From assembly GCA_016283745.1 (NCBI GenBank), contig JAEENM010000005.1, positions 1 through 42,021 of the forward strand: a DNA stretch of 42,021 nt. Reading direction: 5' to 3'. Origin of the DNA: Bacteroidales bacterium. Lineage in GTDB: Bacteria; Bacteroidota; Bacteroidia; Bacteroidales; P3. A program made the position numbers and the translations under genes. The notes under the pieces are model-generated. The model was not told the origin of the DNA. It ran no database searches and worked only from the letters and a program-made list of their open reading frames with translations. Positions 1-28,154 of the stretch are shown here, piece after piece (positions within the stretch are counted from its first letter, which is position 1; each line of letters begins with the position of its first letter).

Positions 1-1
1 G

Positions 2-241
2 ATTTTCTTCGTGGAAGGGGTGCTGATTTCCGTCGTGGGGGTGTTTATAGGACTTGCCGTGGGATTTGTGGTGTGCTTTATGCAACAGCAGTTCGGCATA
101 GTGAAGATGGGCGACGGCAATTTCATCGTCGATGCCTTCCCTGTGGCGATGCACCTAATAGATTTCGTGGTCGTCTTTGCCCTTGTGATAGTGCTCTCGA
201 TGGCCTCGGTGTGGTTCACAGTACGTCGGGCGAAGTTCTGA
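2..241 (+). CDS. C-terminal fragment of FtsX/LolC-LolE-type ABC transporter permease (truncated by window start)
   Basis: Frame is open to the window edge (IFFVEGVLISVVGVFIGLAVGFVVCFMQQQFGIVKM...VVFALVIVLSMASVWFTVRRAKF); two TM segments in the typical C-terminal FtsX-permease arrangement. Confidence 0.7.
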   Translation: MFFVEGVLISVVGVFIGLAVGFVVCFMQQQFGIVKMGDGNFIVDAFPVAMHLIDFVVVFALVIVLSMASVWFTVRRAKF

Positions 242-335
242 TTCTTTCTCCTGCTCGCCTTCGCGTTTTTCTGTAAATCTTTTTTTTAGCTCCTGCTCGT
301 CTTCGCCGAGCGAAATCTATAAATCTTGTAAATAG

Positions 336-354
336 CTTTCGCCGAAGGCGAAAA
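336..354. terminator. Short inverted repeat TTTCGCC-GAA-GGCGAAA, possible terminator between convergent genes
   Basis: gctttcgccgaaggcgaaaact, downstream of the + gene ending at 241. Confidence 0.4.
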
Positions 355-363
355 CTATTCAAT

Positions 364-472
364 AACTATAAACTGTAAACTATAAATTATAAACTATCAA
401 TTCGTTCCGAGTTCCGAACTCCGAATTCCGAATTAACTGACCACTGAATACTGACAACCGACAACTAACAAC
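364..472. repeat. Heptad-periodic degenerate repeat array (about 15 units)
   Basis: AACTATA AACTGTA AACTATA AATTATA AACTATC AATTCGT TCCGAGT TCCGAAC TCCGAAT TCCGAAT TAACTGA CCACTGA ATACTGA CAACCGA CAACTAA, read directly in one 7-nt register. Confidence 0.85.
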
Positions 473-1882
473 CTACTCCTTAAATCCCGGTTCCAGAATC
501 TTGAAAATCTCTTCCAGCATCTTGGCGTCGATTTTCTTGGCAAGTATCTTCTTATCCTTGTCGAGCAGATAGATGACGGGGGTGGAAATGACATCGTACA
601 GCTCTTTCCAGTCCACATTGGCCACACCGCCGTTGTAGTTGTTCCAGTCGTACAGGTTCTTGTCCTTGATAAACTGCTGCCATTTGTCCTCCTCGTGGAT
701 GTCGGTGTTTATGGCGAAAGTGCCTATGTCGTAGGTCTTTGCATGTTTCTGGTAGAAATCGTGGAGGGCCGGAATTATCGTAGCGCAGTGTCCGCATGTC
801 GGCGACCAGAAAATAAGCAGGGTGTATTTGTTTTTGATGTCCGAAAGGTGGTGCCATTGGTCGTTGTAAAGCACACCGAACTCGGGAGCCGTCTCGCCCA
901 CGAGCAGTTTTTTCCATTTGGTGGCACGTTCCACCTCGGCGTCGATGTCGGAAGGTGAAGCCCAGAACGCCTCGCCGGTGGCGTAGTATTTCTCTATCAT
1001 GTGCACATACACCGCGTCGTGCGTCATAACGTTGCTGCGCAGGTATTTCTCCGCCAGGTAGTTAACAAGGTACTGGAACACATCCTTGGCGGGACGCGAT
1101 TTGTCTATCATCTTGTCGGCAAAGTCGCAGATAACGTCGGGCGAGGCCTGTCCCAGATACGTGTTGAAGAAACGTTCCACACGGTCGTAAAACACCGCCG
1201 AGGGGGTGCGCACCATGGCGTCGCAGTCGAGCGACATATTGTCGAAATAATGTTCGCCGTAATAGTCGGCGCGCTGTATTTTGGTAAGGGTGTCGCCTTT
1301 CTCGTCGGTTACAGGCACCACCACCTCTTTGGTGGCTTTAAGCATGCGGCAGAAAAGATATTCCGGATGGGCGGCGATAAGGCCTTCCTGTATGGTGTCA
1401 AGCTCACGGCGAAGGGCGAGCGAGCGTTTCTTTGCCAGCTCCTTGTCGGGAGTGTTCTTGGTTATGGAGTCGTGCATGCTATAATAATGCTGGTTGAGAC
1501 GCTGATAGTCGTAGAAAGCCTTGTTTTCGGGCGATCCGCTCACCTGCATGTTGGTAATCCAGTTGGCCTCGTCGGTCTTGAGGGTGAAAGTGGGTTTGTC
1601 GATGTTGACAATAAACTCGGCGTAGCGTCCCTGCGGGTTAGAGAAGAAATACACCCCCGGCTTCACCTCCTTGGTAGTGCTTTCAAAAACGAACTGACCT
1701 TTTTTGTTGATACGGGCGGTGTCCATTGCAGGAGTATATTTGCCGTAATAATAGCCCATATACAGCACTGTGTCCTTGGCGTTTTTTATCTGGACGGTTA
1801 TCTTGTATCCTTTCTTCGGTGCGGCGCTTACTACGCCAGCTATCAGTACCATTGCGGCCAGAGCCAAAATGTGTTTTCTCAT
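473..1882 (-). CDS. Secreted thioredoxin-like/TlpA-family protein with N-terminal extension
   Basis: Signal peptide MRKHILALAAMVLIAGVVSA; C-terminal LLIFWSPTCGHCATIIPAL thioredoxin motif (CGHC). Start placed at the MRKH methionine rather than the upstream ATG. Confidence 0.8.
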   Translation of the reverse strand: MRKHILALAAMVLIAGVVSAAPKKGYKITVQIKNAKDTVLYMGYYYGKYTPAMDTARINKKGQFVFESTTKEVKPGVYFFSNPQGRYAEFIVNIDKPTFTLKTDEANWITNMQVSGSPENKAFYDYQRLNQHYYSMHDSITKNTPDKELAKKRSLALRRELDTIQEGLIAAHPEYLFCRMLKATKEVVVPVTDEKGDTLTKIQRADYYGEHYFDNMSLDCDAMVRTPSAVFYDRVERFFNTYLGQASPDVICDFADKMIDKSRPAKDVFQYLVNYLAEKYLRSNVMTHDAVYVHMIEKYYATGEAFWASPSDIDAEVERATKWKKLLVGETAPEFGVLYNDQWHHLSDIKNKYTLLIFWSPTCGHCATIIPALHDFYQKHAKTYDIGTFAINTDIHEEDKWQQFIKDKNLYDWNNYNGGVANVDWKELYDVISTPVIYLLDKDKKILAKKIDAKMLEEIFKILEPGFKE

Positions 1883-2038
1883 AGGTATGTAGTTGTCGTT
1901 ATTGTTTAAACTATTAAAAACTGAAAAACTCAAAAATTATTGTATAGACACTTCAAAAGGTGTTTTTTTTACAAAAAGTGGGTGATTTTTGCAAAAAATC
2001 CAGCAATATCTATCGTAACGCACTACTCCAAAACCCGA

Positions 2039-2092
2039 TACAAACACCAATATCTCCATTACGCTTCGGAGCGTAACGCCGCGGAGCGTAAT
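2039..2092. repeat. 54-bp direct repeat copy 1, containing hairpin TTACGCT-TCGG-AGCGTAA
   Basis: tacaaacaccaatatctccattacgcttcggagcgtaacgccgcggagcgtaat; same as 4020..4073 apart from one base. Confidence 0.9.
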
Positions 2093-2154
2093 GGTATAAT
2101 AATTTGATAATGATTAAATTGCAAAATAAATTTGGTTATTTTGTATAAAAAATG

Positions 2155-2162
2155 TATCTTTG
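2155..2162 (+). promoter_or_regulatory. Bacteroidetes-type -7 element TATCTTTG (with TTTG near 2131)
   Basis: TAnnTTTG consensus and TTTG about 21 nt upstream, 25 nt before the ATPase ATG. Confidence 0.75.
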
Positions 2163-2186
2163 CAGAGCAATAAAAAAGTATTTGAT

Positions 2187-3311
2187 ATGAACCCTTTCAG
2201 TTTTGGAAATATAGTCCGTGGAGATGAGTTTTACGACAGAACTCGCGAGACCGAGTTGCTGGTTTCCACTCTCACTGGCGGCAACAATGTTGTGCTTTTC
2301 GCACCGAGGCGTTTTGGCAAAACCTCGCTTGTTTTCAAGGTTATGGAACAGCTGGAGTCGCAAGGTGTAGTTTGTGTGTATATAGATTTGATGGCGACCT
2401 ACTCGCTGGAAAGTCTTGTGGAGTCGTATGTCAATGCCGTGAAAGAAAAGCAGGGACGGATTGAGACATTCGCCAAAAATCTGTCAAAATGGGTGAAATC
2501 TATACGTCCGAAAGTGGATTTCGGTCCGGACGGTATGCCCTCGTTTTCGGTGGATTTTGAAAACGGCAAAGCCGATGCCGCTACAGTGGCCGAGGTTTTC
2601 GACCTACCTCAACACCTTGCACAAAAAGGCAAACGGGTTGTAGTAGTTATCGACGAGTTCCAAGAAATCACCCGTTTTCATAAATACGGGCTGGAGGGTG
2701 TTATGCGTTCCATAATTCAGCGTCAGAAGAACGTGAATTACATCTTTTTGGGCAGCAAGACTCACCTTATGATGCAGATGTTTGACAGTAAAAAACGTCC
2801 TTTCTACAACTCCGGCATACAGGTGCAGATAGGACCTCTCCCACAAGAAGACACCATTCGTTTCCTCCAGCAACGTTTTGCAAGCGACGGGATGGTAATT
2901 GGCGAGGAACAATGCAAGTATCTGATTGAGTGTGTCGGTGACATACCCTACTACATACAATTGTTGGCATCGGTGCTCTGGCAAAGGGTGGTAACAAACA
3001 AACATACAATAACAAACGACGATATTGACTTGTGTGTCGATGATATAATCGGACTTAAGGGGGATTACTACCAAGAGCAGTTCGACAAATATTCCGAACG
3101 CCAAAAAAGTCTGCTTAAGGCCATCGCCGTCGACGGATGTAACATATTTTCGTCCAGATATATACAGCTGCACAGACTAGCCCCCGCTTCGACAGTGCAG
3201 AAAAGTGTCGCCGTCCTAACCGAAGATGGCGTTATCGAAAAGGAAGGCGGCAACCATTTCATAAGCGACCCATTCCTGCGCCGATATATCATCGCAAAAT
3301 ACGGGTTGTGA
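2187..3311 (+). CDS. AAA/STAND-like ATPase (archaeal ATPase_2 family-like)
   Basis: Walker A APRRFGKTSL, Walker B VVVVIDEFQEI, C-terminal winged-helix-like region. ATG at 2187 (MNPFSFGNIV) preferred over TTG at 2160. Confidence 0.82.
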   Translation: MNPFSFGNIVRGDEFYDRTRETELLVSTLTGGNNVVLFAPRRFGKTSLVFKVMEQLESQGVVCVYIDLMATYSLESLVESYVNAVKEKQGRIETFAKNLSKWVKSIRPKVDFGPDGMPSFSVDFENGKADAATVAEVFDLPQHLAQKGKRVVVVIDEFQEITRFHKYGLEGVMRSIIQRQKNVNYIFLGSKTHLMMQMFDSKKRPFYNSGIQVQIGPLPQEDTIRFLQQRFASDGMVIGEEQCKYLIECVGDIPYYIQLLASVLWQRVVTNKHTITNDDIDLCVDDIIGLKGDYYQEQFDKYSERQKSLLKAIAVDGCNIFSSRYIQLHRLAPASTVQKSVAVLTEDGVIEKEGGNHFISDPFLRRYIIAKYGL

Positions 3312-5427: not shown

Positions 5428-5490
5428 TTTCAACTTTCAATTTTCAACCTTCAATTTAAAGATTTCAATTTTCAACTTTCAACTTTCAAT
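5428..5490. repeat. Heptad-periodic array (9 units) ending 4 nt before a start codon
   Basis: TTTCAAC TTTCAAT TTTCAAC CTTCAAT TTAAAGA TTTCAAT TTTCAAC TTTCAAC TTTCAAT. Confidence 0.9.
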
Positions 5491-5494
5491 TTTT

Positions 5495-27347: not shown

Positions 27348-28118
27348 TCAGCCGTACACTTTCACCTCAATTCCCTCATCACGAATAATTTGCGCATATT
27401 TTTCCAACTCCTCGACGGTGAGTTTCTCGAGCTTTTTTTCGGGTGTGGCGCGGTCGATGGCGTACAACATTACGTATTTTGGACCTATTTTTTTCACTAT
27501 TTCCACATATTTGGCAAACTCCTCGTCGGAGACGTTGGAGATGGTGTGGCCGTCGTTTTCACCACGCAGCAAGAGTGTCTGCACTATGCACCTGTTGCCG
27601 AAACGCACGAGGTTGTCGACAAGTTGCTCGAAAGTGTGCTCCGGCTTGTTGGGTTTGTTGATGGCGGTGCGCATGGCTGCTGTGCCGGCGTCGAGTTTCA
27701 GCACGGGGTTGTCGAGTTTCAGCACGGCGTCGAAGACTTCGGGGCGAGACAACTGTGTGGCATTGGTAAGGAGCGTAACCACGGCTTTGGGGTAGTACTT
27801 GTCGCGCATTTTCATAACAAAATCGGCCACCTGCGGGAACTGCGGGTGCAAAGTGGGTTCGCCGTTGCCGGCAAAAGTGAAGGAATCAACCGGAACACCC
27901 TGTGCCACAAGCTCTTGCAAACGTTTTTCGAGCAGCTCGGACACCTCTTCGAAGGTGGGGAGTTTTATGGCTTTATTCTCCGTTTCGCTGTTCCATCCGC
28001 ACTCGCAATAGATGCAGTCGTAGGTGCAGAGTTTGCGCTCCTGCGGGAGCAGATTTATGCCGAGCGACGAGCCGAGCCGACGGCTGTGTATGGGTCCTAC
28101 AATGGTTTCGAATAACAT
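27348..28118 (-). CDS. Radical SAM protein
   Basis: SSLGINLLPQERKLCTYDCIYCECG (CxxxCxxC), FAGNGEPTLHPQF. Confidence 0.9.
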   Translation of the reverse strand: MLFETIVGPIHSRRLGSSLGINLLPQERKLCTYDCIYCECGWNSETENKAIKLPTFEEVSELLEKRLQELVAQGVPVDSFTFAGNGEPTLHPQFPQVADFVMKMRDKYYPKAVVTLLTNATQLSRPEVFDAVLKLDNPVLKLDAGTAAMRTAINKPNKPEHTFEQLVDNLVRFGNRCIVQTLLLRGENDGHTISNVSDEEFAKYVEIVKKIGPKYVMLYAIDRATPEKKLEKLTVEELEKYAQIIRDEGIEVKVYG

Positions 28119-28126
28119 GGTTTTTG

Positions 28127-28154
28127 GTGATTAGTGATTAGTGATTGGTGAATT
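28127..28154. repeat. Heptad-periodic array (4 units) just upstream of the radical SAM start codon
   Basis: + strand GTGATTA GTGATTA GTGATTG GTGAATT; minus strand AATTCAC CAATCAC TAATCAC TAATCAC. Confidence 0.8.

Follow-up and report, generated by a model that had tools for sequence, protein, structure and literature searches.

The cyanobacterial STRR, treated by Elhai in 2008, are said to have a period of 7, to lie in intergenic regions, to comprise several families per genome and to be linked to small dispersed elements. Direct repeats of the heptamer TAACTGA have been described in marine Beggiatoaceae, in Cyanobacteria and in five Bacteroidetes (MacGregor, 2015; PMC4679880). In the Beggiatoaceae these repeats immediately precede start codons and are oriented forward, and related heptamers are seldom repeated; one Flexibacter set is reversed behind a stop codon (PMC4679880). 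In Gramella and Elizabethkingia the intergenic regions concerned also contain other heptamer repeats and 'larger assemblages of heptamer repeats' (PMC4679880). The GGGAATC repeats of Xanthomonas are intergenic and heterogeneous, (GGGANTN)n, with positions 1-4 and 6 conserved (Rehm, 2015; PMC4692102). They lie 28 nt from the upstream gene compared to 160 nt to the next, occur in inverted pairs and occupy positions that are not common to sister species; they are G-rich and quadruplex-forming, and their strand orientations are about equal (30-35% each) (PMC4692102). The Nostoc heptamer GGGGA(C/T)T is listed together with them, and a GTGATTA repeat in Helicobacter is mentioned there by way of citation (PMC4692102).

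We show here that a repeat array at a gene end of a Bacteroidales bacterium is one member of a noncoding class of heptad arrays that is genome-wide and Bacteroidota-wide and comprises hundreds of arrays. The window, that is the whole stretch of DNA analysed, has 42,021 nucleotides. It begins with the 3' end of an FtsX/MacB-like permease gene (1-241, forward strand) that is cut by the contig start; a full-length homologue on contig C15 (L002:151-1365) matches PF02687 and PF12704. The convergent gene on the reverse strand (473-1882, TAG stop at 473-475) encodes DUF4369 and thioredoxin-like/AhpC-TSA domains according to Pfam. Between the two genes, positions 364-472 have a lag-7 identity of 0.686, compared to 0.289 +/- 0.044 in dinucleotide shuffles (z = 9), and none of 20,000 such shuffles attains the value of the real array; at longer lags the identity is 0.589 (lag 14) and 0.443 (lag 21). 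The period-7 array that a first-pass annotation had noticed here is therefore real, and so is its placement between convergent genes, with the permease ending at 241 and the array adjoining the TAG.

Tandem repeats finder (TRF) analysis of the window divides the region into three period-7 arrays (364-397, 405-434 and 435-472), and each of the three corresponding blocks is significant separately in the shuffle test. Block A (364-402, forward strand), delimited by sequence, TRF and shuffle test, follows (AAYTRTH)n and reads AACTATA AACTGTA AACTATA AATTATA AACTATC AATT; its unit series is also present in L085, L102, L094 and L092. Block B (403-434, forward strand), delimited by sequence and TRF, belongs to the TTCCGAA family (CGTT CCG AGTT CCG AACT CCG AATT CCG AATT). 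Block C (435-472, forward strand), delimited by sequence, is of the NNACTGA/AACTGAC family (AACT GAC CACT GAA TACT GAC AACC GAC AACT AAC AAC), and its end directly adjoins the TAG stop at 473-475 on the reverse strand. The first-pass annotation had described one unbroken 7-nt register, which does not hold: the phase of the AAYT core modulo 7 is 0 at 364-399, 4 at 403-431 and 1 at 435-470. It moves by +4 at the A/B junction and by another +4 at the B/C junction, a displacement that is concealed when rows of seven letters are written from 364. At both junctions adjacent units match at chance level, with 2 of 7 positions at A/B (AATTCGT/TCCGAGT) and 1 of 7 at B/C (TCCGAAT/TAACTGA), indicating that A, B and C are separate arrays lying side by side (AATT/CGTT and AATT/AACT). 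We agree with the annotation that several motif families are concatenated here, AACTATA, TTCCGAA and AACTGAC by TRF and sequence, and that slippage of one unit is insufficient to explain them. The A-to-B junction with the identical +4 step occurs also in L004 and L005/L085 (AACTATCAACT/AATTCCGAACTCCG in L004 and L005), and block B is found after AACTATA arrays (L004, L005/L085) and twice after AATTGTT arrays in L101. A step of +4 is the commonest junction class in the sampled genome, yet it accounts for only 5 of 12 scored junctions and was dropped as a general rule. The window holds two further arrays of the same class, one of TTTCAAC/TTTCAATT at 5428-5493 (forward strand), whose AACT strand runs into the stop of a reverse-strand gene, and one of the GTGATTA/AATCACT family at 28118-28151 (reverse strand).

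The likeness to heptameric repeats known elsewhere, which had been proposed before, is borne out in several respects. With the TAACTGA repeats of MacGregor the locus shares the heptamer period, the intergenic position and a TAACTGA unit at 434-440 in block C; the other units of this block are CCACTGA, ATACTGA, CAACCGA and CAACTAA, and blocks A and B consist of motifs other than TAACTGA. With the Xanthomonas GGGAATC repeats it shares heterogeneous heptamers with conserved positions, intergenic location, proximity to the upstream gene, inverted pairs and positions that sister species do not have in common; a run of three G, as in the G-tracts of those quadruplex-forming repeats, is absent from both strands of 364-472. 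Rfam gave no covariance-model match up to E = 1 in window positions 1-2200, and a search for an intrinsic terminator at the array found none. The array sequence had no match among plasmids and one weak 30-nt match among phages, in searches where the low-complexity filter may mask matches.

Beside block A lies a dispersed element. Its REP-like hairpin (329-361, reverse strand, thus on the strand of the 473-1882 gene), recognised by its fold and its dispersed copies, has a 15-bp stem and is joined to AACTATA-type arrays. The remaining part of the element (284-327, no strand assigned), CTCCTGCTC..TTCGC..AAATCTATAAATCTTGTAAAT, contains a second, weaker hairpin at 287-319, and the reverse strand of the whole (fold of 284-363) reaches -30.1 kcal/mol (z = -4.9). 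Copies of the hairpin element are found at the unrelated loci L092, L080, L016, L027, L085 and L108 and in the sister species G003, and a search of 1.18 Mb from the two species gave 39 matches to either the hairpin or the tail. At unrelated loci several hairpin copies are followed by an identical tail, AATAACTATAAATTATAAACT, and among the copies the stem changes on both sides, from TTTCGCC/GGCGAAA to TTTTGCC/GGCAAAA. Written out, the dispersed REP-like element is CTCCTGCTC...CTTTCGCCTTCGGCGAAAG, and several copies bear an AACTATA tail. Hence, both the hairpin with its AACTATA tail and the A-plus-B block recur as combinations at unrelated loci. The hairpin at 329-361 is a short palindromic dispersed repeat and resembles REP/REPIN elements as extragenic palindromes do; the heptad arrays, unlike REP/REPIN, are not palindromes and are not covered by this description. 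The genome also has three Y1_Tnp (RAYT-like) genes (L031, L032, L033). Their flanks lack the hairpin palindrome of 329-361 and bear palindromes of the CCCCTTCGGGG type and its relatives instead, and mobilisation of the arrays by RAYT was rejected for this reason.

Abundance was assessed in 880 kb of the genome, in stretches of which some had been picked for containing matches, with genes called by a simple longest-ORF rule. In this sample the period is specifically 7: we find 125 noncoding arrays of period 7, 24 of period 8 and 0-4 for each other non-multiple period up to 13, compared to 0 in shuffles. Of the 406 intergenic regions that measure 60 bp or more, 88 contain a period-7 array, and the sister species G003 has 29 such arrays in 304 kb. 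Comparable arrays elsewhere, on which the first-pass annotation had made its claim depend, are thus abundant in the genome and its relatives and above shuffles, and with z = 9 at the locus and 125 noncoding arrays the feature belongs to the broad class of heptameric tandem repeats (LSSR/STRR-like). In G005, from another genus of the same family (L124-L143), noncoding periods of 7, 8 and 11 occur in similar numbers, and AACT is spaced by 7, 10, 11 and 22.

Pairs of AAYT that are 7 apart number 514, compared to 90 expected. When all 4-mers with one degenerate position are ranked by four copies spaced 7, AAYT (equivalent to ARTT) comes first with 188, the runner-up has 58 and shuffles have 0. After alignment on AAYT, positions 1, 2 and 4 are near-constant between arrays (A, A and T), which is partly built in because the alignment phase was chosen to maximise AAYT; the unbiased evidence for the anchor is the 4-mer ranking. 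Positions 5-7 vary between arrays (TTC, ATA, ACT, CCG, GAA, GTT, ATT, GAC, GCA and others) and are fairly uniform inside one. In most arrays, the usual unit therefore consists of a constant AAYT core and a triplet that stays uniform among the units of one block and changes from block to block. AAYT is found in at least half of the units in 82 of 121 arrays, and about one third are not AAYT-anchored.

Adjacency to a stop codon, a passing remark in the first-pass annotation, is a general polar property of the array class. The array start lies at most 10 nt from a stop codon or overlaps it in 63 of 102 cases, compared to 28 when arrays are placed at random within these regions (no more than 38 in any of 50 simulations), and the stop codon itself is often part of the array, for example GTT GAA AAT TGA AAATTGAAAG. 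Among 56 oriented arrays at most 30 nt from a stop, 49 point their AACT strand into the stop, antisense to the gene, and 7 are oriented the other way (binomial p = 7e-9); the ratio is 49:5 with arrays inside ORF ends included, and 15:1 for the 16 oriented arrays of sister species G003. Near start codons the orientation is 8:6 and without bias, so that the forward placement upstream of start codons that characterises the TAACTGA repeats is not seen here. Unlike in the Beggiatoaceae, many related families stand in joined blocks, at stops and antisense to the gene, and unlike the one family of Xanthomonas, with about equal strands, the many families described here are strongly one-way. The polarity holds in convergent pairs (18:3), where each of the two genes is followed by its own array in the expected orientation. 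The two ends of such pairs face opposite ways; replication direction alone can therefore not explain the polarity, and replication-strand bias as its sole cause was rejected. The G/C skew behind stops is -0.035 without arrays compared to +0.199 with arrays, and general 3' UTR composition was likewise rejected as the cause, since array-free sequence behind stops has no skew. A supply of stop codons was rejected by inspection, as GTCAGTT, TTCGGAA and TTTGCAG have no sense-strand stop. The polarity is 5:3 in G005 and the numbers in the distant genomes G059 and G122 are too small, and hence it is established for one genus only.

Comparison with a second version of the locus and with related genomes indicates fast turnover. 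The same two genes, 98.3% and 96.8% identical to the window, lie at the end of contig C15, with different intergenic sequence between them. As both contigs end in these genes, C15 most likely represents a second haplotype; the assembly is metagenome-like, and the C15 version may be a recent duplication rather than a strain variant. Over window positions 1-847 and C15:30748-31538 (L002) the two overlap at about 97%, again with different intergenic sequence. Block C is retained on C15 in 35 of 38 positions (3 differences), and different sequence, with GTTAATT units, stands where the window has blocks A and B and the hairpin. In G003 and G002 a TTTCAAC array abuts the orthologous stop of the 473-1882 gene, while the more distant G001 has no array at this stop, indicating either that the stop came first and the array was gained behind it, or that the array was lost again. 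Across 42 orthologous intergenic regions compared with G003, an array is present in both species in 7, only here in 3 and in neither in 32; because the window and L021 are two haplotypes of one locus, the independent number with an array in both is 6, not 7. Relative to G003, array families are switched at the window locus, L027:8000 and L090, and unit numbers are changed at L027:6840 and L088. An array of about 50 bp in L023 has no counterpart in the orthologous region of G003, and L004 differs from the G003 sequence L123, whose orthology was judged from shared flanks, by whole units. Units are gained and lost in 7-nt steps, and blocks differ in unit number or family from the alternative haplotype and the sister species. 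The boundary at the stop is constant while blocks are replaced between haplotypes and sister species. A test of unit order found 19 shared runs compared to 9.2 expected (p = 0.007), with a longest run that is not unusual (p = 0.3); support from unit order for block copying is moderate, and the copying rests on few recurrent combinations.

The pattern of five AAYT spaced 7 is found in 125 of 248 Bacteroidota genomes and 66 of 123 genera, with a patchy distribution of 0 to >100 matches per genome, in counts where overlapping matches within one array are counted repeatedly and some places are counted on both strands because AATT is its own reverse complement. The period-8 equivalent occurs in 41 genomes and 25 genera of the same sample. 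The four genomes of this genus have 74 to 208 matches to the AAYT pattern, and some genera prefer period 8 (AATTAGATAATT). In G200, G204, G252 and G055, which belong to another genus, AATT recurs every 8 bases (AATTAGATAATTTGACAATTAGATAATT), with the core kept and the spacing different. G028, of the same order and a different family, has the most matches of all genomes searched (259), mainly in palindromic AATTATG/AATTGTT units.

Taken together, we regard the feature as probably a composite 3'-end repeat, in which a dispersed REP-like hairpin element is followed by three abutting heptamer arrays, and as a probable polar 3'-UTR satellite that evolves by 7-nt slippage and block copying. Inside a block the triplets would be homogenised through slippage or unequal recombination, and new blocks would be copied in from other arrays via recombination between similar repeats. 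The array region would be transcribed as the 3' UTR of the gene and might be tolerated there because it is situated behind the stop codon. The AAYT core and the one-way orientation would be set by a process acting on the transcribed gene end. One candidate is selection, exerted on the mRNA tail with its ARUU every 7 nt or by a binding protein on the DNA; the other is strand-biased expansion in transcription or replication, in which R-loops or single strands exposed behind genes might take part. A possible but rather unlikely alternative makes the arrays binding platforms, either for an RNA-binding protein on ARUU every 7 nt or for a DNA-binding protein on AAYT every 7 bp, with effects on 3'-end formation, stability or termination. 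Core and spacing would then be under selection while the triplets drift and become homogenised, in line with the constant 4-nt core and free triplet, the fixed spacing, the orientation and start at the stop, and the presence of arrays in lineages across the phylum; a repeat-binding protein has also been proposed for the TAACTGA repeats (MacGregor, 2015; PMC4679880). However, arrays are present in only about one fifth of the long intergenic regions, they are lost in orthologues (L023, and the G001 orthologue of the 473-1882 gene), and the GACCTTT and TCCGAAA families lack the exact core. Similarly doubtful is that AAYT heptad arrays constitute a conserved Bacteroidota 3'-end system, in which a putative protein would read ARUU every 7 nt in the mRNA or AAYT every 7 bp in the DNA, and arrays would serve termination, stability or insulation at gene ends throughout the phylum in spite of their turnover inside a species.

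The gain and loss of whole units between species would also be expected of plain simple-sequence repeats, grown by slippage from random seeds with no privileged motif and located behind genes merely as free space, and in many bacteria long simple repeats are most often heptamers (Mrazek, 2007, cited by way of PMC4679880). However, random seeds would not let a small set of related heptamers arise dozens of times, with a single 4-mer leading by so wide a margin; pure slippage would privilege no 4-mer, and the AAYT excess thus argues against it. One orientation at stops is not expected either, and single-unit slippage makes no adjoining blocks of different motifs. This quite unlikely account is already contradicted by anchor and polarity. 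Alternatively, a RAYT-type transposase might move a REP-like element made up of a hairpin and a heptad array as its tail, which arrives one-way behind stops. The hairpin with a AACTATAAATTATAAACT tail at unrelated loci, the two-sided stem changes and the three Y1_Tnp (RAYT-like) genes speak for such an element, but the hairpin is absent beside most arrays, many hairpins have no array and the Y1_Tnp genes are flanked by other palindromes (CCCCTTCGGGG), making this origin very unlikely. Finally, an assembler may have joined repeat arrays into a chimera, as the window begins at a contig end and contigs C6 and C15 both end in the region, overlapping with different intergenic sequence. We give little credence to such an artefact: block A followed by block B is also seen in the interior of other contigs and in the independent assembly of the sister species (L004, L005/L085, L123), and both contigs have block C beside the stop.

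Heptamer arrays are already known, while the anchor and the stop-codon polarity appear to be new. In the literature searched, with subscription journals mostly outside its scope, we found neither the AAYT core nor the polarity described, and their novelty is therefore provisional. Heptameric repeats have been the subject of decades of piecemeal reports without a common rule. For a large group of gut, rumen and environmental bacteria three testable rules can now be stated: AAYT recurs as a fixed core at 7-base intervals, the array begins at the stop codon, and its direction relative to the gene is fixed. With them the question "why 7, why there" becomes directly testable. Given the fast block turnover, the sites are potentially strain markers and also a trap for assemblers. 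The array described here is thus not a one-off, and represents a class of fast-evolving gene-end DNA that has been little described.
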